Below, in pieces: positions 7,697-23,232 of a stretch of 60,042 nucleotides of DNA; position 1 is the stretch's first letter; every line of letters begins with the position of its first letter. This stretch comes from Sulfurospirillum tamanense (GTDB lineage Bacteria > Campylobacterota > Campylobacteria > Campylobacterales > Campylobacteraceae): the NCBI RefSeq assembly GCF_016937535.1, contig NZ_JAFHKK010000016.1:1-60042 (forward strand), in the 5' to 3' direction. The translations under genes and the position numbers were made by a program. The notes under the pieces are model-generated. The model made no database searches. It was not told where the DNA came from and saw only the letters and a program-made list of their open reading frames with translations.

Positions 7697-8050
7697 CTAA
7701 ATCTCTTTCTTTTTTAAATCTCCGTGATACCTGATGTCTTCCGCGCGCAAAGAGTCATCTCTTAATACTTCTGGCACAGGGTCTTTGTCTGCAAACTTCG
7801 CGCGTTCACGGTCTAGTTCATCTTCGCTGTACGCCATCATCATGTCTGCATTGACCACATGGCTCGTGGCTTTGATTTGCTTAAATTTCCCAATCTCCTC
7901 TTCAATCCCCTCACCTTCGACTGTCAGGATGATTTTTCCCATCTCTTTATCGTGAAAGTGGTAGTCGCAGTAGTCGCATTTTTTGAAAGTATCTACAAGA
8001 GCCTCAATGTGCTCCACCTTGGCTTGTACAACAATACTTGAAACATTCAT
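7697..8050 (-). CDS. napD: NapD-type chaperone for periplasmic nitrate reductase
   Basis: 117 residues from the ATG at 8050, which overlaps the napL stop as ATGA and follows a GGAG site, favouring this start over one 4 codons upstream. The N-terminus NVSSIVVQAKVEHIEALVDTF is the NapD ferredoxin-like fold that binds the NapA twin-arginine signal peptide and aids Mo cofactor insertion and export control. The C-terminal 40 residues are an acidic and basic extension beyond the usual short NapD. Cytoplasmic. Part of napAGHBFLD. Confidence 0.85.
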   Translation of the reverse strand: MNVSSIVVQAKVEHIEALVDTFKKCDYCDYHFHDKEMGKIILTVEGEGIEEEIGKFKQIKATSHVVNADMMMAYSEDELDRERAKFADKDPVPEVLRDDSLRAEDIRYHGDLKKKEI

Positions 8051-9003
8051 GGCAATCTCCATAACATAATATAAGGGTCATCGCTTCCACTAACCAACGT
8101 TTTTTCATCTACAAAAACGATGGTATTCATAGTACTGCGTTGCCCTTTAAGGGTATAGCGCTGGGTTTTGGTTTGCAGGTCAAACACCGCAATGGCATTG
8201 TCTTCTGTAAACGCCCACGCCCCAAGGATACTGCTGGGGCTAAGCGCCCCTGCATAAATCAAAAAATCCGCATTAACCCGCTCAAACCTTCCGCTGGCCC
8301 GTTCGTAAATAATCCCCCTTCTGTCTTGTCCTGCGGTTAAGATACGCTCTTTTTTAAAATCGACTTTATACACATTGTCCACATTGCCACCCTTGTAGGT
8401 TTGCAATACTTCACCCATCATCACATCCACCAAGGCAATCTCCCCAGACTCATCGCTCGTAACCGCAAGGGTTTTGCTTTCATTAAGGGCAAAATCTGAA
8501 AAATGGGACTGGTTAATTTGAAACCGATACACCGTTGCCTTTTTCTGGACATCGTACAACATCAGTTCGTTGCTCATCAGCCCCAACAGCACTTGCTTAG
8601 GACTGATGAACTTTGCTTTTTTGATCATCAGTTGTGCGCTTGCATCAAGCACTCGCTCTTTCACTCCTTCGCGCACAATATACAACTCGCGAAAACTCCC
8701 CTGTGTTTGAACCACTGCCAAAAACGTGCTTCCATTGCGCAACACGTCCACGCTGTACACTTTAGCACCCAGCGGATTTCCCATAAAATCCTCAATCCCA
8801 TCAAAAACCACTGCCGTTTCTTGAACTTTGGCCTCAAGGTCAAACACCTCAATGCTTCCCGCATCCGTCCCTGCAATAATGCGCCCCTCTTGTACTACAA
8901 TGTCCAACACATTGCCCTGCGCTTTAAACACATGAGAAGGGGCTACTTCTTGCCCAAAAAGCAAACCAACAATCCCCAGCAAACACAATCCGATTTTTTT
9001 CAC
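8047..9003 (-). CDS. napL: NapL, periplasmic WD40-like accessory protein of nitrate reductase
   Basis: 318 residues from a GTG at 9003 preceded by AAGGAGGG. The start overlaps the napF stop, so translation is coupled. It begins with a signal peptide (KKIGLCLLGIVGLLFG). The rest is built of beta-propeller-like repeats, for example GRIIAGTDAGSIEVFDLEAK and EKTLVSGSDDPYIMLWRLP. NapL is found in nap operons of Wolinella and Campylobacter relatives; its exact role is unsettled, though a modest contribution to nitrate reduction has been described. The longer reading frame upstream of 9003 lies inside napF and lacks a signal peptide, so I rejected it. Confidence 0.85.
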   Translation of the reverse strand: MKKIGLCLLGIVGLLFGQEVAPSHVFKAQGNVLDIVVQEGRIIAGTDAGSIEVFDLEAKVQETAVVFDGIEDFMGNPLGAKVYSVDVLRNGSTFLAVVQTQGSFRELYIVREGVKERVLDASAQLMIKKAKFISPKQVLLGLMSNELMLYDVQKKATVYRFQINQSHFSDFALNESKTLAVTSDESGEIALVDVMMGEVLQTYKGGNVDNVYKVDFKKERILTAGQDRRGIIYERASGRFERVNADFLIYAGALSPSSILGAWAFTEDNAIAVFDLQTKTQRYTLKGQRSTMNTIVFVDEKTLVSGSDDPYIMLWRLP

Positions 9004-9488
9004 ACTTCCCTCCTTTGTATGCGCACGGCATCCACAGGACATACCCCATAGCAAAACCCGCACGCCGTACACACATCCCCCGCAACCACGGGTCGATACA
9101 ACCCAAAAAAGGTAATAGCACCCACCGCGCATACATCTTTACATGTAGCGCACACCACGCCATTCCATGCCAAACACGTTGCGGTTTCTATGCGCACCTG
9201 CGCGCTTATTTTCGCTTCGTTTTCAAGGCTTAAAACACCTTTTGGGCAAGCATGGGCGCACGCTTGACAAAAGGTGCATCCTGAATTTTTAAAAACCAAC
9301 ACAGGCATTCCCTGTTCGTCTTTTTGAATAACCGCTTCTTCACAAACAGCAACACAAGGCGCATCCACGCAACTGGGGCACTCTTGGTGAAAAAGTTCCT
9401 CCGCGCCACCATAGGGCGGTCTTAGGGGTAGGGTTTTGGAGCGCAGGGCAAGGGATGCAAGCATCCCCCGCCTAGACATATCTGCCAC
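9000..9488 (-). CDS. napF: NapF, ferredoxin-type maturation protein
   Basis: 162 residues with four cysteine clusters of the [4Fe-4S] kind: CPSCVDAPCVAVC, CTFCQACAHACP, CLAWNGVVCATCKDVC and CTACGFCYGVCP. This matches NapF, a cytoplasmic Fe-S protein that interacts with NapA before export. It starts with GTG 2 bases after the napB stop; an internal ATG 3 codons on is an alternative start. There is an N-terminal SRRGML pair but no convincing Tat h-region. Contains one TACATGTA, read as Thr-Cys within the third cluster. Confidence 0.9.
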   Translation of the reverse strand: MADMSRRGMLASLALRSKTLPLRPPYGGAEELFHQECPSCVDAPCVAVCEEAVIQKDEQGMPVLVFKNSGCTFCQACAHACPKGVLSLENEAKISAQVRIETATCLAWNGVVCATCKDVCAVGAITFFGLYRPVVAGDVCTACGFCYGVCPVDAVRIQRREV

Positions 9489-9490
9489 AG

Positions 9491-10093
9491 TTAAATCCCG
9501 TCGTTTAAGACATCAAGCAAATTAGAACTCGTTGCTCCACCCTCTTCACTTCTAAATACCGAAGTAAAGCGATTGGGAACAATAAGCGCATTGTCAGATT
9601 GGGGCGCATGGCAAGCTGTACATGTATAGCGATCCATGCTTAGCCCTTCTCGCTCGTGCACCACAACAATGATGTCAGAGGTGTTTGCTACGGGCTTGCC
9701 ATCTTTTTTGAACTCACCGCCAACGTATTGGGTCAACGGACGAAAAGATGCCAAGTGCGAAGCAGGAACTGGCGTTGCAGCAACCGCTTCGGCCATAGCT
9801 GGCATGTGGCAGTCCATGCACATGTTCATCTCTTTGGTGATGTCAAGCATACCTTCCACGTCATGGGGAATCATCGGCGGCACATTTTCAAAAGAACGCG
9901 CAAAGACCTTAGATTCGCCGGGGGCCGTCTTGGCATAGTTTGTGGCGTCTGCTGTGGTTTTATCCTCAGCATACAATGAGGTCTGACGAAGCCCCATCTC
10001 ATCTTCACTAACAGCCTGTTGTGTCACTGCACATCCTGTGACAATCAAAGCCCCAAGGGCTAGGCCAAAAAGAACAATTTTTTGTTTCAACAT
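9491..10093 (-). CDS. napB: NapB, dihaem cytochrome c subunit of nitrate reductase
   Basis: 200 residues. Two haem c motifs, CMDCH and CTACH, with His ligand candidates in SHLASFRPL and VVHERE as in NapB. It passes electrons from NapGH to NapA in the periplasm. The signal peptide ends in IVTGC, a plausible lipobox, which would make this NapB membrane-anchored; canonical NapB is soluble. No napC lies in the operon, as in Wolinella-type systems where NapGH is the quinol dehydrogenase. Confidence 0.95.
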   Translation of the reverse strand: MLKQKIVLFGLALGALIVTGCAVTQQAVSEDEMGLRQTSLYAEDKTTADATNYAKTAPGESKVFARSFENVPPMIPHDVEGMLDITKEMNMCMDCHMPAMAEAVAATPVPASHLASFRPLTQYVGGEFKKDGKPVANTSDIIVVVHEREGLSMDRYTCTACHAPQSDNALIVPNRFTSVFRSEEGGATSSNLLDVLNDGI

Positions 10094-10096
10094 ACT

Positions 10097-10921
10097 CTAC
10101 TCCTGTTGATTTTGATGAATATAGCGACGCACGCCAAAAGAAAGGGCGTCGTCTTCACATACTTCCACACATCGACCGCAGTTAATGCACTCACCCATCG
10201 TGATAGCACCACTACGCTTTCCAACGATTTCTAACACTGGCTTTTCAGGGCAAATATCTTTGCATTTCATGCACAAGGTGCAGTTTGGCTGATGGTGTAT
10301 GACGCGCACAAAACTAAATCTACCCAAAAGGGCATAAAATGCCCCAAGGGGACACACATGTCCGCACCATCCGTTTTTGAGAGCAAAAAGGTCAAACAAA
10401 AAGATGCTAAGCACCGCGGCAAACCCCATGCCAAAGCCAAAAATAATCCCCCGATGCAAGATCCCAATGGGACTTACCATTTCAAATGCCCCAACACCTG
10501 TGGCAAAAGAAAGCACAAGGGCTAGACCCAAAAGCCAGTAGCGTACGCTACGCCCTAGCCAAACCTTTCGTTCTGTTTTATCTAGCAACAAAATACGGCG
10601 CAAAAAGTTGGCAAGGTCAGTAACCAAATTCATAGGACAAACCCACGCACAAAATCCTCTACCCCCAACAAGTCCATAAAACAGAACGATAATCACCGCC
10701 CCAAGCAATGCGCTTGAAGCCACCCAAGCCCCTGTGGCAAAAATCTGCATCAGCGCAAAAGGGTCTGCTAAAGGAATCACGCCAAAGACAAGTGAACTGC
10801 TAAGGTTTCCCTGTAACACGGTCCAGCCGTACACACTTCCTGCCACATACAAGGCTAAAAGCCCACCTTGGGTAAGGCGTCTTGCCACCATAAAACGATG
10901 GCGCTTAAGAAAATCAATCAT
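10097..10921 (-). CDS. napH: NapH, membrane Fe-S quinol dehydrogenase subunit
   Basis: 274 residues, with four to five membrane segments and two C-terminal [4Fe-4S] clusters (CTLCMKCKDICP and CINCGRCVEVCE). Two further paired Cys motifs, CAWVCP and CGHVCP, lie near the membrane and are typical of NapH. With NapG it oxidises menaquinol and feeds NapB. The start overlaps the napG stop by 8 bases. A GAG ribosome binding site lies within the end of napG. Confidence 0.95.
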   Translation of the reverse strand: MIDFLKRHRFMVARRLTQGGLLALYVAGSVYGWTVLQGNLSSSLVFGVIPLADPFALMQIFATGAWVASSALLGAVIIVLFYGLVGGRGFCAWVCPMNLVTDLANFLRRILLLDKTERKVWLGRSVRYWLLGLALVLSFATGVGAFEMVSPIGILHRGIIFGFGMGFAAVLSIFLFDLFALKNGWCGHVCPLGAFYALLGRFSFVRVIHHQPNCTLCMKCKDICPEKPVLEIVGKRSGAITMGECINCGRCVEVCEDDALSFGVRRYIHQNQQE

Positions 10922-11729
10922 CCAAAAGCCCTCCCTCGTTTAGATACTGTTGTGGACTTAACTTGCTTCGGTTGGTCACGGTTGTCTCAAGCCCTTCTAG
11001 GTGCTCTACGCGCTGCACATCTTTAGCATCCCATCCTTTGATGTAATGCTTTCCAACGTCCCCTTGCGCAAGGGCATGAGGACGCACAAAAATGGCAGGT
11101 TTTTCCGTCACACAGGCCCGTTCACACAGCCCACACCCCGTACACGCATCACTGCTTACGACAGGAATCAAATAGGCATGTTTGCCTGTGCGCTCATTGC
11201 GTCGGTACTCTAGCTTAATGGCACTATCCATCACAGGACAGGCACGGTAGCACGCATCGCATTGGATTCCCCAATACGCAATACACGACTCCATGTCTAC
11301 CACCGCTAGGCCCATTCTGGCTTTTTCGATAGCCCACTGCTTCTCACCTTTTTCAATAACCGAAATCCCCTCCTCGCTTAGCGCCCCTGTAGGGCACACA
11401 GGCATACAAGGAATATCAACACACATGTAGCAAGGCGTGTCTCTTGGGATAAAATAAGGCGTGCCTAATGGCTTTTGCGTTCCTGGCGTTGCAAGCATCA
11501 AGGTGTCATAAGGACAGGCTGCTACGCACTGTCCACACCGAATACACAGCTTCAAAAAATCCGCCTCAGCGCGCGCTCCAGGAGGTCGCAAAAGCAAAGG
11601 TGCCGCCTTTGCCTCCACAAGGTACCCTGTCCACACCATCCCTCCCAAAGCGGACAAACCCACACTCTGCGCCATCAAGGAAAGAAACTTTCGGCGTTCG
11701 GTGATTGTTCGCTTTGTTTGATTGCTCAT
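10914..11729 (-). CDS. napG: NapG, Tat-exported Fe-S subunit
   Basis: 271 residues. N-terminal twin-arginine signal (ERRKFLSLMAQSVGLSALGG). Four [4Fe-4S] clusters: CIRCGQCVAACP, CYMCVDIPCMPVCP, CDACYRACP with an upstream Cys, and CTGCGLCERAC. Periplasmic partner of NapH in menaquinol oxidation and electron delivery to NapB. It follows napA by 9 bases. Confidence 0.95.
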   Translation of the reverse strand: MSNQTKRTITERRKFLSLMAQSVGLSALGGMVWTGYLVEAKAAPLLLRPPGARAEADFLKLCIRCGQCVAACPYDTLMLATPGTQKPLGTPYFIPRDTPCYMCVDIPCMPVCPTGALSEEGISVIEKGEKQWAIEKARMGLAVVDMESCIAYWGIQCDACYRACPVMDSAIKLEYRRNERTGKHAYLIPVVSSDACTGCGLCERACVTEKPAIFVRPHALAQGDVGKHYIKGWDAKDVQRVEHLEGLETTVTNRSKLSPQQYLNEGGLLDD

Positions 11730-11738
11730 GGTTTTTCC

Positions 11739-14531
11739 TTAAGCTTTATAAATTTTTACGGCGCATTTTTTATAGTCTGTCTCGCCTGAAAGCGGACATG
11801 TCGCATCAAGGCATACCTTGTTGATGAAAACCTTCTCATCAAAAAATGGTACATAAATAAGCCCTTTTGGCGTTTTGTTTCGGCCTCTAGTTTCCACCCG
11901 TGCTTTGACTTTACCACGACGGCTCTCTACCCATGCAAGGTCACCTTGCTTAAGGCCATACTTTTGCGCATCTTCACTGCGCATAAAGCACAGCGCTTCA
12001 GGCACAGCACGGTAAAGCTCAGGCACACGCATGGTCATCGTACCACTGTGCCAATGCTCCAACACGCGCCCTGTACACATCCAAAGAGGATACGCAGTGT
12101 CTGGCATTTCGGGGGGATCCATGTAAGGACGGGCAAAAATTTTGGCTTTGTTCTTGAGTCCTTTTGCTGTCGTATCTGTCACACCACGCAAATCTCCTTG
12201 CTGCAACGCTTTAGCCAACGTGCCATAAAAGGCAAATTCGCCTGAATTTTCTTTGCGCGCATACGGGTCATACTTGGCATTAAAGCGCCATTGGGTTTCT
12301 TTACCATCCACCACGGGCCACTTCAAACCACGCACGCGGTGGTAGGTGTCAAAGTCTGCGAGGTCATGCGCCTTGCCTCGCCCAAAGTAGGCGTATTCTT
12401 CAAAAAGGTACTTGTGAATGTTAAAGCCATATCCTTTCCACGGCTTACCATCACTTCCAAGCACATTGCGGCTATCGCCCTTTGATTCGGTGTCATCATA
12501 TCCTTCGCCCACAGGGTCGTTGGCGGAGAATTTCTTGGCACGTTCATTGCCAAAGAGGATTTCAAACATCGTAGTGTCTTCGGTGTAACCCATGGCTTTG
12601 GCTTTGTCTATCATGCTTTCGAGTTTTTGTCCGCCACGCAAGGTGTACTCACCCCACGCGTCCTTGACCGTAAAACGCTTAGAAAGCTCTACCCATTGCC
12701 ATGTATCACTCATAGCCTGCCCAACAGGAAGGACTTGCTGCTTCCATAACTGGGTTCGGCGTTCGGCGTTTCCGTACCCGCCCCATTTTTCATATATCAT
12801 CGCTGAGGGCAAGATAAGGTCGGCCACTTTGGCTGAGATACCCGGATACGCATCCGAACACACGATGAAATTATCCATTTCACGTGCCGCCTTAATCCAG
12901 TGGTTTGCATTGGCAGTAGTGTGAAAAATGTTACACACATTCACCCACGCGAATTTCACCACGCCATCTTCAATGTCACGAAAAATTTTCATGATGTGTT
13001 GGTTGCCTACAGGGTTTAGCGTTCCCTCAGGAATTTTCCACACGTTTTCTACTACTTGGCGGTGCTTTGGATTGGCTGTCATCATGTCCGCAGGAAGTCG
13101 GTGGGTAAAGGTACCTACCTCTCTAGCTGTTCCACACGCACTGGGCTGTCCGGTGAGTGAAAACGCGCCGCTTCCTGGCTTTGACTGCTTGCCAAGCAAA
13201 AAGTGAATGTTGTACGCAAGGGTATTAACCCATGTGCCACGAATGTGTTGGTTCATGCCCATCGTCCAAAACGAGACAACTTTGCGGTCTTTTTCGATGT
13301 ATAAATTGGCTAATTCTTGGAGTTTGGCTTTGTAGCTTTCCAAAGACTCATCAGGATTTCCTTTGGAAATCTTGGCCACATAATCTAGCGTGTAAGGTGC
13401 AAGAAATTTTTTGTACTCTTCAAAAGAAATCTCCCAGTGCTTCAAGCCCGCAGGCTTATGTTCCATCACGTCGCCCTCTTTATAGCCAAAAGGCTCAAGG
13501 GATGGGGCTTCTTTGGCCGAGACGATGGTTTTCATCTCTTTGCCGACGGTTTCCATTTCCAAAGCGCTGTATTTGCCCTCTTTGATGGACTTTTCATCAC
13601 TGCGACGCATGCCGTAGCCAATATTCACAGGCTGTGAAGCAAAAACGATGTATTTGTTTACAAAATCCCAATCAATAGCCTCGGGGTGGTTGTACACAAT
13701 CTCTCTGGCAATGTAGTTAAAAATGGCCAAATCGGTACTGGGTGAGAAAATAATCTCTGTATCAGAAAGGTCAGACCCTCGGTGGGTGTAAGTAGAAAGG
13801 TTGATGACCTTGACGCGCTCTGGTGCGGTAAGTTTGCGATCGCTGACGCGTGACCAAAGAATCGGATGCATCTCCGCCATGTTTGCTCCCCATGTGACGA
13901 TGGTATCGGTGAGTTCAATGTCATCATAACAGCCCGCTGGCTCATCAATCCCAAAGGTTTGATAAAACCCAACAACCGCCGAAGCCATACAATGGCGCGC
14001 GTTGGGGTCAATGGCGTTTGAACGAAACCCGCCTTTCATCATCTTTTGCGCCGCACAGCCTTCCATGATGGTGTACTGGCCTGAAGCAAACACGCCTACG
14101 CCCTCGGGGCCACTTTCTTTGAGGGCACGTTTGATGTTTTTTTCCATTTCATCAAAAGCACGCTCCCATGAAATGGGACGGAACTTGCCGTTTTTATCAA
14201 ACTCGCCTTTGTCGTTGGTGCGCAAAAGTGGCTGGGTTAACCGGTCAGCGCCGTACATGATTTTGGCATTAAAGTAGCCTTTGATGCAGTTAAGGCCACG
14301 GTTCACAGGAGCCGCTGGATCACCTTTGACTGCTACAATCTTTCCTTCTTTAGTCGCAACCATGATCCCACAACCGGTACCACAGAAACGACACACAGAT
14401 TTATCCCAACGCCACCCCGACTCTGCTTGTGCAGCGGCCGCGCGCGCCTCGCTGGGAACACTAATACCTACAGCAGCCGCAGCAGTAGCAGCAGCCGATG
14501 TTTTGAGAAAGTCTCTTCGTGAAAGGGACAT
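11739..14531 (-). CDS. napA: NapA, periplasmic nitrate reductase catalytic subunit
   Basis: 930 residues, the usual length for epsilonproteobacterial NapA. Tat signal [20 protein letters not shown]. The [4Fe-4S] site is CRFCGTGCG followed about 27 residues later by the Cys of LNCIKGYF. The molybdenum ligand Cys sits in [10 protein letters not shown]. It reduces nitrate to nitrite in the periplasm using bis-MGD. First gene of napAGHBFLD, with a strong AGGAGG-like site before the ATG and a Crp/Fnr-type box upstream. mobB, needed for MGD synthesis, is elsewhere in the window at 31582. Confidence 0.98.
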
Positions 14532-14561: not shown

Positions 14562-14605
14562 ATTGTAACCTTTAGCCAAAAGGCAAAGCTATGACTTAAG
14601 TCAAG
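14562..14605 (-). promoter_or_regulatory. napA promoter with Crp/Fnr-type box
   Basis: On the minus strand: a perfect dyad TGACTTAAGTCA (14592-14603, within TTGACTTAAGTCAT) and a -10 TACAAT (14567-14562). The dyad centre is 30.5 bases from the first base of the -10, placing it near -42.5, a class II activator position. The same layout and the same -10 occur before nrfH. It fits control by the FNR-like regulators at 16015 and 22534, whose recognition helices read ETLSR. Confidence 0.75.
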
Positions 14606-14649: not shown

Positions 14650-16005
14650 TCAGCGGGTTTGCTTGGCATTGTGCGCCAAGGACGCAAGATTATCCTTGAG
14701 CTTGTTGAGCATATTTGAAACATTCATCAAGCTCTCAGTGGATTCGATAGCAATGTCTTCGGTGGCATTCATGCTGTGGCCCAGTTTTTTGCGTGTCTCT
14801 TCATCAATCACTAAATCCCGCAATGCTTCTTCAACGTTTTCTGCCAACGCTTGCAATTCACCGATAGAGTTTTCCGCGCGTTTGATGGCTTCTTCGGAAG
14901 AGCGCATCGCCACACTTACCTTGCCAACATACGCTTGCAAATACGAAGAGGCTTCTTGAAGTTCAGTCTCCATACCTTCGGGCACCGAAACAGTTTCGGG
15001 TGTTGCCCCTTCAATGTTGGCCAAACGTTTAGCGCGATCTACAAATCGGTCGATGTTAGACACCATGTCGCGAACCAAAACAAAGGTGTATAAAATAACC
15101 ACCATTGCCATAATCCCAATAAAAAAGAGGCTATTAACCAAGAGTTGGTTTTTATTTTCACTATGCTCAGTGTAGAGCCATACTGCTTCGTCCATGTTGT
15201 CTAAAATACGTACATTATTGCGGTTTACATAAGCAATGGAGGCATTTATAGCACGCTCCACTTCTAGTAAATGGGTCACATAAGTCTCAAATTCACCCCA
15301 ATACTGCTGTAAATGCACCACCGCCCCGTGCACGTCGGGGTGGCCTTGGATGGTCGCATCTTGCGCAAACATAGTGAGGGTTTCATCGTATAAGGCCTTT
15401 GCGTTGACAAATAAAAAATAATCCTCCCGATTGTCTGTGCGCAAATACCGCTCTATAAACAACCCCATGCGCTGGGAGAGCATCCGTTGGCGGCCTGAGA
15501 GGTCGATATATACCCCCTCCAAGTTCTTGGCGACCATCTCTTGTACGATTTTATCAGACATATTCAAAAGCAATTCAATGCGTTTACTGAGCACCTCTTT
15601 GTCGCTCTTGACACTCAAAATTCCTTTTTTAACGCTTTCGAGCTCTTCTTTAAAAGGCCCCCAGCCTTTGGCAACTTCTTCCAACTTGTTCTCAATTACA
15701 CTGTTTTGAGGTGCATAAATTCCCCGATCAGAGTTGCCAAAGCGCAGGTCGTTGAGGTTGTTTTCAAACAACTCCATCGCCCCATCAAGTTGGCGAAAAT
15801 CGTGGCTGTCGCGGTGACGTAAAAAGAAAATTTCTTTACTCATTTTTTGGGTGAGCATCCGTTGCTTGCCCGCAATGTTAATGATAAGCGAATCTTTTTT
15901 AGACTTTTCGTTCATGGCAACCACAAGGCCGATGATGAGAAAAATCATCAACGAAAGCAAGCCGCCAACAATGCGCAGTTTGGTGCTAATGCGTGAGGGT
16001 TTCAT
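14650..16005 (-). CDS. Membrane nitrate-sensor-like protein with two NarX-type P-boxes and no output domain
   Basis: 451 residues. Membrane segment at 12-30, a periplasmic helical region to about 285, a second membrane segment at about 288-311, then 140 cytoplasmic residues. The periplasmic part holds two copies of the NarX/PilJ nitrate-binding motif: IAGKQRMLTQKM (44-55) and LSGRQRMLSQRM (169-180). The cytoplasmic part is a helical, coiled-coil-like stretch without a histidine kinase, GGDEF or chemoreceptor hairpin. It lies 9 bases after a Crp/Fnr gene and directly before napA. It probably senses nitrate or nitrite for this island; how it signals is unclear. Annotated relatives are usually called type IV pili methyl-accepting chemotaxis N-terminal domain proteins. 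Confidence 0.85.
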   Translation of the reverse strand: MKPSRISTKLRIVGGLLSLMIFLIIGLVVAMNEKSKKDSLIINIAGKQRMLTQKMSKEIFFLRHRDSHDFRQLDGAMELFENNLNDLRFGNSDRGIYAPQNSVIENKLEEVAKGWGPFKEELESVKKGILSVKSDKEVLSKRIELLLNMSDKIVQEMVAKNLEGVYIDLSGRQRMLSQRMGLFIERYLRTDNREDYFLFVNAKALYDETLTMFAQDATIQGHPDVHGAVVHLQQYWGEFETYVTHLLEVERAINASIAYVNRNNVRILDNMDEAVWLYTEHSENKNQLLVNSLFFIGIMAMVVILYTFVLVRDMVSNIDRFVDRAKRLANIEGATPETVSVPEGMETELQEASSYLQAYVGKVSVAMRSSEEAIKRAENSIGELQALAENVEEALRDLVIDEETRKKLGHSMNATEDIAIESTESLMNVSNMLNKLKDNLASLAHNAKQTR

Positions 16006-16014
16006 TCCCAGTTC

Positions 16015-16680
16015 CTATTCATAAATTTCTCTTAACGCGTTTTCGTCGCGGATAATAACACAGTTTTTTTCGATTGCAATCACGCCGTTGCGCTCTAGTT
16101 TTTTCAAAATGCGTGAAAGGGTTTCGGGCTGAATGTGTAGCATGTAGGCAATTTCGTGTTTTTTGAGGGTATTAAAATTTTCCAAATCACTCACAATCAT
16201 GTGCGCCACTTTGGCTGAGCCATCAAATACTACGTCGCGGTTGATGATGCACTGAAGTTGAGAAATAGCCCGAAAAGACTCTTTTAATATGCGTTGCATA
16301 AGTGCGGGTGTGGCTTTTAGCACCGCACGAAATGCCTCGCTCTCAAAAGACAATACTTCGCTATCTTGGGTAAATTCTGCGTTGGCATAGCAGACAAAAC
16401 AGTGGTCTTGGCAGATTTTTGCCACATCAAACACCAAGGTGTTAGCACCCAAATGGTAAAGGAAAATTTCATTATCGTAACGGTCAACTTTGTAAAATTT
16501 CACTCCGCCATATACAATAAAATGCAAATAAGGGTCTTCTTCTTTTTCATAATAGAGGGTCTCGCCGCTAGCATGGTGGGAGATCTTGCAACAGGCGCAC
16601 AACTGCTGCAAGATAGACTCATCTAGTCCTGAAAAAAGAGAGATCGAATCTAAGAAAACAGGAGAGATTTGACTTTGCAT
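16015..16680 (-). CDS. Crp/Fnr-family regulator with unusual cysteine clusters
   Basis: 221 residues. N-terminal cyclic-nucleotide-binding-like beta-roll (to about 115), long dimerisation helix, C-terminal winged HTH with IQPETLSRILKKLERNGV. The E-x-x-S-R recognition pattern is that of FNR rather than CRP and predicts TTGA-type half-sites, as found before napA and nrfH. Cysteines are concentrated at C28, C30, C31 (LCACC) and C90, C94, C97 (CQDHCFVC), which is not the classical FNR arrangement but could ligate Fe-S or haem, or sense NO. Cotranscribed with the nitrate sensor. It is a good candidate activator of the nap/nrf genes. Confidence 0.88.
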   Translation of the reverse strand: MQSQISPVFLDSISLFSGLDESILQQLCACCKISHHASGETLYYEKEEDPYLHFIVYGGVKFYKVDRYDNEIFLYHLGANTLVFDVAKICQDHCFVCYANAEFTQDSEVLSFESEAFRAVLKATPALMQRILKESFRAISQLQCIINRDVVFDGSAKVAHMIVSDLENFNTLKKHEIAYMLHIQPETLSRILKKLERNGVIAIEKNCVIIRDENALREIYE

Positions 16681-20146: not shown

Positions 20147-21658
20147 CTATTTCTTTTTAAAGTACGAAGATTCCAAATCTACGTCTTTACGGTTTGCTTC
20201 ATCTAGCAACCCTTTGGCTTTAGCCTGTTTGTGCCACTCTTTTTCAAGAGTCTCTTTAAACTTCATCTTCGCCTCAATCTCTTTTTGCAAGTTTACGCCT
20301 GCAAGAGTTTGGGCTTTTTCTTTGGTGTCAAAATCAGGTGCCATGTATTGGGCATCACCGTATTTTGCCAAAAGACGTACAAGAGAAATACGCGCTTGTT
20401 GGGCTTTTTCACTAGCGTCCGCGAGTAACCGTAAGGTCTCTTCAGGTGCGTGGAAAAATGACCCGTGACTCGCAATAGCGTAATCCCAACGCCATTGTCC
20501 ATGGCGAAGCAAGGTACGAATCTCTTTGAGCTCTTCGTCTGTGGCGCCAAGCTCCATTGCACGGCCTGTTTCTAGGTGTGCTTTAGCTAGGTTATCCATG
20601 GAAATTTCCATCAAGAACTCTTTGCGCTCAAATTTTGTATGAACAATTTCGCGCAATTTATCTTCGCTTTCACGGTGGCAGGTCATACAACTGCGGTCCA
20701 TGTTATCCAGTGGGTTTCCGATTTTGTGATCAGAATATTTCACTGAACCTTCTTGGGTGTAAGGCATGTGGCAATCGGCACATGAAACACCTTTTTGGTA
20801 GTGAATGCCTGTTTTTGCAATCTCATAGCCAGGGTGTTGGGCTTTGAGCATTGGAGTTTTGGAGATTTTGTGCGTCCAATCACTAAAGTCGATACTATCG
20901 TAATAGCGCTCCATTCCCTCAGCAGTTAATCCTTCATGCCATGGCAAGGTAACCACCATCGCTGTTTGGTCTTTGCCTGCTTTGTCGGTGTACTCGGTTT
21001 TTTTGAAATAATACTCAGAGTGGCATTGCGCGCACACTAAAGAACGTTTTTCTTGGTGTGTTGCATCTTCAAAGCGGGGAAGCCCAGCCACTTCAAGACC
21101 ACGGTTAAGGTACTCTCGTCCCATGGCAAGCTCAGCAGTTTTGGGATTATGACAATCCAAACACCCTACACTGTTGACCGCTTCACTACCATAACGCGCC
21201 CATTTTCCTGTAAAGTACTCAAGCTCGCCATCTTCTTCCATCAAACGCACTACATCAGGAGATTTACACGTCCAGCACGCCGTAGGAAAAGGACCTGTTA
21301 GATCATCCACCGGTGCACCCGTGCGCAACGAATTGACATTATCTTGCACCGCATAGTAATGGCCGCGCGGTGAATTGTAGTCAATCGAAAATCGGTACCC
21401 TGCCCAAATCACAGGCAATTGGGGTTTTTTCTTGAGCAAATCTTCCATCTCGTCGCCCTCTTTGGTACGTTTCCAAGAATCGTACTGGCGGGGATAGTAT
21501 TTTGCCCACTCTGAACTCACTGAAGCATTTGCAGGAATCCCCTGTACTTCATTCAGCGCCACGCGCTCTGCTTCTCGCGCATTGATATTGCTTGTTAAAA
21601 ACGCCATTGAAACAATCGCTAACAATGATGCTACAAGCAACAATTTAAATTTTTTCAT
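20147..21658 (-). CDS. nrfA: NrfA, pentahaem cytochrome c nitrite reductase
   Basis: 503 residues from the ATG at 21658, preceded by GGGAG; two upstream in-frame codons (GTG, TTG) are less well placed. Signal peptide present. Haem motifs: the catalytic lysine-ligated CWTCK, then CLDCH, CAQCH, CADCH and CMTCH, the standard NrfA set. It reduces nitrite to ammonium in the periplasm in complex with NrfH. Located 12 bases after nrfH. Confidence 0.97.
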   Translation of the reverse strand: MKKFKLLLVASLLAIVSMAFLTSNINAREAERVALNEVQGIPANASVSSEWAKYYPRQYDSWKRTKEGDEMEDLLKKKPQLPVIWAGYRFSIDYNSPRGHYYAVQDNVNSLRTGAPVDDLTGPFPTACWTCKSPDVVRLMEEDGELEYFTGKWARYGSEAVNSVGCLDCHNPKTAELAMGREYLNRGLEVAGLPRFEDATHQEKRSLVCAQCHSEYYFKKTEYTDKAGKDQTAMVVTLPWHEGLTAEGMERYYDSIDFSDWTHKISKTPMLKAQHPGYEIAKTGIHYQKGVSCADCHMPYTQEGSVKYSDHKIGNPLDNMDRSCMTCHRESEDKLREIVHTKFERKEFLMEISMDNLAKAHLETGRAMELGATDEELKEIRTLLRHGQWRWDYAIASHGSFFHAPEETLRLLADASEKAQQARISLVRLLAKYGDAQYMAPDFDTKEKAQTLAGVNLQKEIEAKMKFKETLEKEWHKQAKAKGLLDEANRKDVDLESSYFKKK

Positions 21659-21670
21659 CAACACTCCCTT

Positions 21671-22207
21671 TTATAGTACTTCTTTAACGCCCAAGTTATT
21701 TGGCGTTGTTGTTAGTCCTCGCACCTTCCCGTGAGGCACGCCCTTATGGCACTCCCAGCATCGTCTCCCTGTATCCACACTTGAATCATCAAAGGTGTGG
21801 TACTTGTCTGCATTGCTCACTAGCGTCGAAGTAAGGCTTGCATGGCAGGAGATACAATTCTCTTGCACACGCCTTGCGCCATCATCGCTGATTTTGATGC
21901 TGTGGTCAAAACTCTGCAGCGTAAAGGCAACTGAGTGATTCCAGCCATCAACCGCTTTAGCGATGTATTTGTCCACAAAATCCCCGCGCGGCAAATGGCA
22001 ATCTACACAGGTTGCGTTTCCAAAATGCGCACTGTGTTGCCATGTGGCGTATTGTGTGTTCATAACATGACAATTGATGCACGCTTTAGGATCGCTAGAG
22101 AGGTAGGAGAGTGCTTTTGATGCATGCACTGTGTAGGCAAACATTCCTACAGCAAAGATAAATGCACCCAATGCACTAAATATAAGGAATTTATTTGGTT
22201 TCAACAT
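21671..22207 (-). CDS. nrfH: NrfH, tetrahaem menaquinol dehydrogenase for NrfA
   Basis: 178 residues from the ATG at 22207 after AAGGAGGG; upstream in-frame codons give a non-membrane leader rich in Arg/Lys and are rejected. One N-terminal membrane anchor (FLIFSALGAFIFAVGMFAY), then four haem motifs: CINCH, CVDCH, CISCH and CWECH. NapC/NirT-family quinol dehydrogenase that anchors NrfA and supplies electrons. Confidence 0.96.
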   Translation of the reverse strand: MLKPNKFLIFSALGAFIFAVGMFAYTVHASKALSYLSSDPKACINCHVMNTQYATWQHSAHFGNATCVDCHLPRGDFVDKYIAKAVDGWNHSVAFTLQSFDHSIKISDDGARRVQENCISCHASLTSTLVSNADKYHTFDDSSVDTGRRCWECHKGVPHGKVRGLTTTPNNLGVKEVL

Positions 22208-22330
22208 TCCCTCCTTGATTTGAATTGGTTGCCTGTGGCAACGCCGCCGCTTTCCCCTTGGGTCTCGCGCCTCCTCTTTCGCAAACCCAACGATTTTTGA
22301 TTGGTAACACTTCTTACCAATACATGCGGG

Positions 22331-22375
22331 ATTGTACTGGATTGACGAAGAATAAATCATTGACTTAGGTCAATG
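22331..22375 (-). promoter_or_regulatory. nrfH promoter with Crp/Fnr-type box
   Basis: An 18-base dyad CATTGAC-TTAG-GTCAATG (22358-22375) and, on the minus strand, a -10 TACAAT (22336-22331). Box centre to -10 distance is 30.5 bases, identical to the napA promoter. The leader from the predicted start (about 22324) to the nrfH ATG is about 117 bases. The rest of the 22208-22533 gap holds AT-rich sequence, one TACATGTA (22438-22445) and the terminator of the next gene. Confidence 0.78.
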
Positions 22376-22533: not shown

Positions 22534-23175
22534 CTACTCAAAAATCTGGCGTAGTTTTTCCCCATCAAACTGTGTAATCCGCAACGTTTCGTCCATGCTA
22601 ATCAGACCTTGTTGTTTGAATTTCGTTAGGGTGCGTGAAAGGGTTTCGGGAGTAAGATTCACAAGGGATGCAATCTTGGTGTGTTTAAAATCCCCAAAAA
22701 ACTCCGTATGCTCGATAATAAACTTCGCCACCTTGGCTTCAGAGGTGAGGATAATCTCCTTGTGTACTACTTCGGACATGATTTTTAGCTTTGCAGAGAG
22801 GGATTGGATGATTTTAAAGGAGAGCTCAGGGTTATTAAGCAGCTCTTTCTTAAAGGTTTCATATTCGATTTTAAGCACTTGCCCATCCACCATAAACTCA
22901 GCTGTAGCAGGATAGGGAATGGCTTCAAAGTTAGCCAACTCAGCCACAAAAGAGATGGGGTAAAACTGGTGCAAAAAAATCTGCGTCCCTTTGAAATTGG
23001 TCTTATAGAGTTTTAACACCCCATCAAGGAGTACATGTAAATACGTCGGTTCTTCTCCCTCAAAAAAGAGAATCTCCCCTTTTTGATAAGACTTCACCGT
23101 ACTAATGCGTTCCAAAATCGCCAAATCTTCTTGGCTAAGTTTTGAAAACAAGGGGATTGTTTGTAAATCAACCAT
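22534..23175 (-). CDS. Crp/Fnr-family regulator
   Basis: 213 residues from the ATG at 23175 (AAAGGA upstream); 11 further in-frame codons exist but precede the ribosome binding site. Beta-roll sensor domain, dimer helix and winged HTH with LTPETLSRTLTKFKQQGL, so the same E-x-x-S-R recognition helix as the regulator at 16015. No cysteines in the sensor domain, hence not an Fe-S FNR; perhaps haem- or NO-responsive like other family members in this phylum. It is divergent in sensor but alike in DNA-reading residues to its neighbour, so both may act on the nap and nrf boxes. Confidence 0.88.
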   Translation of the reverse strand: MVDLQTIPLFSKLSQEDLAILERISTVKSYQKGEILFFEGEEPTYLHVLLDGVLKLYKTNFKGTQIFLHQFYPISFVAELANFEAIPYPATAEFMVDGQVLKIEYETFKKELLNNPELSFKIIQSLSAKLKIMSEVVHKEIILTSEAKVAKFIIEHTEFFGDFKHTKIASLVNLTPETLSRTLTKFKQQGLISMDETLRITQFDGEKLRQIFE

Positions 23176-23232
23176 TAAAAATCCTTTATCCGAAACCTTA
23201 CAGAGCAAACCCTTAAAAAGAGTTAATTTGTC

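Follow-up and report, generated by a model that had tools for sequence, protein, structure and literature searches.

The window, that is, the whole stretch of 60,042 nucleotides that was analysed, carries at 14650-16005(-) a real ORF encoding a receptor of 451 aa that crosses the membrane with two TM helices, carries two PilJ modules in tandem in the periplasm, and ends in a cytoplasmic tail of 140 aa. Immediately upstream lies a gene for a putative NssA-type Crp/Fnr regulator of 221 aa (16015-16680(-)), the near-obligate genomic partner of the receptor. The end of this ORF is separated from the receptor ATG by 9 nt, and because of this gap we infer that the two genes are cotranscribed. On the other side, napA, encoding the periplasmic nitrate reductase (11739-14531(-); TIGR01706, 1352.8 bits) and the proposed target of the pair, starts 118 nt downstream of the receptor gene, in agreement with the adjacency reported in a preliminary description of this DNA. 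It is followed by the rest of the nap operon, napGHBFLD (7697-11729(-); names given partly by position). The nrfHA nitrite reductase genes are located at 20147-22210(-).

Two further Crp/Fnr genes were noticed. One, NssB/NssR-like, lies in the window at 22534-23208(-); it is unpaired and falls outside the clade of the paired factors. The other, an unpaired Nss-like gene among nuo-like genes, lies on another contig (C2:159840-160454). Both products keep or nearly keep a YPATA-type motif.

Architecture of the receptor

According to hydropathy, TM helix 1 covers about residues 12-30 (15916-15972(-)) and TM helix 2 about residues 288-311 (15073-15144(-)). Pfam PilJ (PF13675) matched the receptor in two stretches with 91.8 bits (curated cut-off 26.6): module 1 spans residues 32-126 (15628-15912(-); 69.5 bits), and module 2 is encoded at 15265-15513(-). 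The AlphaFold model (mean pLDDT 82) contained two confident helical modules in the periplasm, and its cytoplasmic part was a helical hairpin of low confidence. The best fold matches of the model were PilJ (E 9e-7) and McpS. The solved structure closest in sequence was the nitrate receptor McpN, which overlaid the model at 1.5 Å over 85 columns.

No known output domain was detected in residues 312-451 using Pfam and NCBIfam. The same searches found neither the histidine kinase transmitter domain of the NarX/NarQ class nor the MCP signalling domain of chemoreceptors, so that the absence of kinase and chemoreceptor output claimed in the preliminary description was confirmed. The tail also gave no meaningful match in the fold search. 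It is not featureless, however, and to this extent the earlier picture of 140 residues lacking any known output needs amending: a motif, EDIAIxSxExL...L..L (residues 416-436; 14698-14760(-)), is strongly conserved in its E416-D-I-A-I-x-S-x-E-x-L part, and E416 is invariant in all groups compared, the nos-type receptors included. We propose this motif as the output or docking site. Receptors came in two lengths: those of about 450 aa contain both modules, those of about 335 aa are missing the second, and the tail motif was present in either form. Since full length and tail are conserved in many genera, the gene is not debris, and a truncated NarX or chemoreceptor gene was ruled out.

N-boxes and the predicted ligand

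The two motifs of the preliminary description were found where it had placed them, IAGKQRMLTQKM at residues 44-55 and LSGRQRMLSQRM at residues 169-180. The N-box of nitrate-binding PilJ domains, [IVL][ND]xAGxQRML[ST]Q, was derived experimentally from a nitrate-specific receptor (PMC6381276). N-box 1 of the window receptor, INIAGKQRMLTQ (residues 42-53; 15847-15882(-)), matches it exactly, and N-box 2, IDLSGRQRMLSQ (residues 167-178; 15472-15507(-)), has one mismatch (A to S). McpN, in which the N-box is present, binds nitrate via R61, whereas PilJ, which has two modules and no N-box, does not bind nitrate (PMC6381276); for this reason the N-box is more specific evidence than membership of the PilJ family. 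Judged by its boxes, the receptor is predicted to bind nitrate and is very probably a sensor of nitrate outside the cell.

The G-x-x-R of box 1 was kept in 55 of 56 nap-context receptors, the exception being L025. Within genus g38, one genome (G348) had napA and intact boxes and another (G117) had neither napA nor boxes. Genome G354 carried a pair with intact boxes and no napA match. In the window's own genome the receptor is the sole PilJ protein; it is for this one genome that the preliminary statement on a general lack of NarXL in Epsilonproteobacteria was examined.

Other arrangements were seen as well. Genus g43 (L042, L071, L086, L129-L131) has lost N-box 1 and kept N-box 2, and the second module may therefore take over ligand binding there. 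Other Campylobacterota proteins, of 560-580 aa, contain about four consecutive PilJ modules (G096:C3:7398-8900 and G047:C14:8787-10229), and near a factor-receptor pair and moaA lies the gene of a distinct protein, 776 aa long, in which an N-box-like motif is present (L061:11866-14196).

Pairing with the Crp/Fnr gene

The receptor was searched in 397 Campylobacterota genomes and relatives were found in 142, weak matches counted. This set of genomes was also searched for the factor, and pairing was counted in the 112 for which a receptor match had been listed and used. As tabulated, a Crp/Fnr gene lay immediately upstream of the receptor on the same strand in 104/112 genomes, with gaps of 11-81 nt among these pairs apart from a single 1-nt overlap. 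After the eight exceptions had been inspected (six adjacent, one at a contig edge, and G131 without the factor), the pair was present in 110/112 Campylobacterota genomes. The co-occurrence that had been suggested as a check on the preliminary description was thus found, and chance adjacency was ruled out by this pairing, which also holds at loci other than nap. One further genus, with weak matches at the first search, had the order factor, receptor of about 300 aa, napA.

The pair loci were situated in nap, nrf, norCB-nirS, nosZ, and moaA contexts, and in several Helicobacter-like genera the pair was located away from nap. One of these, genus g9 (L040, L041, L121-L128), carries it at what by eye is a housekeeping locus (tatC, queA, rsmG region), with boxes mostly intact. 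A search of plasmids yielded one Sulfuricurvum match only.

Receptor and factor distances were correlated in a mirror-tree comparison, with r = 0.92 when shared ancestry was left in. When factor and receptor were read through and folded as one chain, the model, with a pTM of 0.54, gave no interface that could be interpreted, and the confidence of the cytoplasmic helix was about 61-75. We found no description of the receptor-Nss pair in the literature that was accessible; an earlier mention in the original 2016 NssA paper is possible.

About 25 Sulfurimonas-family genomes contained a second receptor matching a nos-type query, and the nos-linked loci inspected had the order factor, receptor, nosZ. 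Paralogous pairs directly before nosZ were observed at L073, L074, L133, and L178-L183 (Sulfurimonas-type). The nos-type receptors are devoid of G-x-x-R, and most have a conserved QKxFTQ box in its place, which possibly serves another nitrogen oxide.

The paired factor

The window factor shared 49% identity with the nap-linked factor encoded by genome G167, which we take to be Wolinella succinogenes DSM 1740. In the f8 genomes, the identity of the nap-linked factors to the three W. succinogenes factors was 45-47, 28-31, and 24-28%. For a Nitrosophilus factor encoded upstream of nap, the published identities to NssA, NssB, and NssC are 44.8, 29.2, and 26.1%, respectively (PMC11539149). Because the f8 values match the published ones, the nap-linked factor of G167 was assigned as NssA. 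By sequence comparison, the window Crp/Fnr protein is accordingly identified as NssA-type, the W. succinogenes assignment resting on the published identities plus the presumed identity of the genome. According to reviews citing Kern and Simon 2016, nap and nrf of W. succinogenes are induced by nitrate through NssA, and how the Campylobacterota Nss factors sense nitrate, NO, and N2O is described as unknown (PMC8139620).

Maximum-likelihood analysis placed NssA together with all paired factors in one clade (support 100/97), and NssB, NssC, and NssR-like factors outside it. Four members of the clade have no intact receptor; three of these have long branches, and in the remaining one (G275) remnants of a receptor lie downstream. 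The YPATA effector-pocket motif was present in 0/112 paired-clade factors, in contrast to 20/20 of the other Nss-like regulators compared. Conversely, an IQPETLSR helix occurred in 110/112 paired factors and in none of the 20 others. The strand-loop motif KVDRYDNEIFLY (regulator residues 64-75; 16456-16491(-)) is specific to the NssA clade and is a candidate receptor contact. A factor without a ligand pocket of its own beside a membrane receptor is what direct control would predict.

An FNR-type N-terminal cysteine cluster for [4Fe-4S] was found in 0/112 paired factors; with no cluster motif and no YPATA pocket motif, FNR-type or cAMP-type sensing by the paired factor was rejected. Two other cysteines, C97 and C144 (window 16390-16392 and 16249-16251), were both present in 81/112 factors, both absent from 29, and present singly in 2. 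Their being gained or lost together might reflect an additional redox input. The nearest solved relative of the factor is DNR.

Target promoters

The Crp/Fnr (Nss) site TTGACTTAAGTCAT lies before napA at 14591-14604(-), 59 nt from the ATG, and a -10-like TACAAT (14562-14567(-)) follows 23 nt after it, at class II spacing. It seems that napA is transcribed from a regulated promoter of its own. Before nrfHA, the proposed second target, an exact TTGACCTAAGTCAA site is located at 22360-22373(-), again with TACAAT 23 nt later. From these sites, the NssA-type factor is predicted to activate nap and nrf on nitrate in the window.

TTGA-N6-TCAA was found within one mismatch in 54/54 napA upstreams at pair loci (44 exact) and in 175/773 control genes (36 exact). 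A -10-like hexamer was present 22-23 nt past the site in 33/55 cases, and any other offset occurred at most twice. This spacing is the distance of a class II activator and is compatible with any Crp/Fnr binder; NssB-type factors may share these sites with NssA-type ones. Among the nosZ upstreams examined, the exact site was present in 10/10 (one at a nap-type pair). Upstream of the Crp/Fnr gene itself, sites within one mismatch (24/100) were at background.

Proposed mechanism and alternatives

We consider it fairly probable that the receptor is a dedicated kinase-free transmembrane nitrate receptor that directly controls the neighbouring NssA-type factor through its conserved tail, thereby activating napA and nrfHA. 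This reading builds on what was observed of the architecture, the N-box match, the near-obligate pairing, the clade and its motifs, and the promoter sites. Nitrate would be bound at the dimer axis of the periplasmic PilJ modules via the G-x-x-R of the N-boxes, and the change would travel via TM2 to the helical cytoplasmic tail. There, the conserved EDIAIxS region with invariant E416 would act directly on the Crp/Fnr protein, either freeing it from the membrane or switching it to its DNA-binding form, and the factor would then activate napA (and nrfHA) at class II TTGAC-N4-GTCAA sites. A kinase, a response regulator, and a second messenger would all be dispensable. Contact between receptor and factor, and control running from the former to the latter, are suggested by these features taken together. 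The preliminary reading, in which nitrate bound outside reaches a Crp/Fnr factor inside, gains support from the co-occurrence, the N-box matches, and the inclusion of NssA in the paired clade.

The pair might also be functional and its PilJ ligand be nitrite, another oxyanion, or another small molecule. Pairs are indeed found at nrf, nor-nir, and nos genes too, the nos-type box differs altogether, NarX and NarQ respond to nitrite as well, and some PilJ domains do not bind nitrate (PMC6381276). However, box 1 is an exact copy of a motif taken from a nitrate-specific receptor and the W. succinogenes NssA is tied to nitrate; we regard a different ligand as unlikely.

It is somewhat harder still to accept that the factor senses its own signal, whether redox through C97/C144 or NO via haem like DNR, with the receptor modulating it or aiding Nap assembly. 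The relationship to DNR and the joint presence or absence of the two cysteines would suit such a role, but the full pair is absent from 31/112 paired factors, among them Helicobacter-like and all aligned nos-type factors, and no paired factor has the FNR-type cluster motif. Least probable, in our estimate, is that the receptor signals elsewhere, as a degenerate chemoreceptor in chemotaxis or another complex, and that adjacency merely reflects co-regulation. Its architecture is that of a PilJ-type chemoreceptor minus the signalling hairpin and its tail is helical; nevertheless, the partner is immediately upstream at non-nap loci too, the distances of both proteins track each other (shared ancestry included), and the pocket motif is lost in paired factors only. 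Direct control of the factor by a nitrate receptor thus remains our preferred reading, and the receptor is likely the missing sensor that switches on nitrate respiration without a kinase relay.

A specific gene has here been named that accompanies the nitrate-linked Nss factor across many genera, and if this reading is true, a kinase-free route leads from a ligand outside the cell to a Crp/Fnr factor. The bacteria concerned take part in denitrification and in the turnover of nitrate and N2O. More tentatively, and with the balance slightly against it, the pairs could represent a new signalling class of transmembrane receptors without enzymatic output, each contacting its own Crp/Fnr factor, with the box diversified by pathway (the nitrate N-box at nap, QKxFTQ at Sulfurimonas nosZ).

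Comparison with known systems

In NarX and NarQ, nitrate is sensed by a periplasmic four-helix domain that is flanked by two TM helices and contains a G-x-x-R binding motif (PMC8199190). The receptor likewise has a periplasmic sensor between two TM helices and G-x-x-R, but it has two modules, no HAMP, GAF, or kinase match was found, and its partner is a Crp/Fnr factor rather than a response regulator. With McpN, the nitrate chemoreceptor of P. aeruginosa and its best PDB sequence match, it has the PilJ fold and the N-box in common; McpN, however, has a single PilJ module and is a complete chemoreceptor, whereas the receptor has no chemoreceptor signalling domain. The type IV pilus chemoreceptor PilJ, its best fold match, has the same tandem PilJ architecture and differs in having chemoreceptor output, no N-boxes, and no nitrate binding. 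On the side of the factor, the window Crp/Fnr protein belongs to the same clade as W. succinogenes NssA. The outline of NasS-NasT in PMC3795266 is that of a kinase-free receptor which holds or releases its regulator upon nitrate binding. The scheme proposed here would also be kinase-free control of a regulator, but the regulator in NasS-NasT is an RNA-binding antiterminator and not a Crp/Fnr factor. The NasS-NasT receptor, moreover, is cytoplasmic and unrelated to the PilJ-module receptor.
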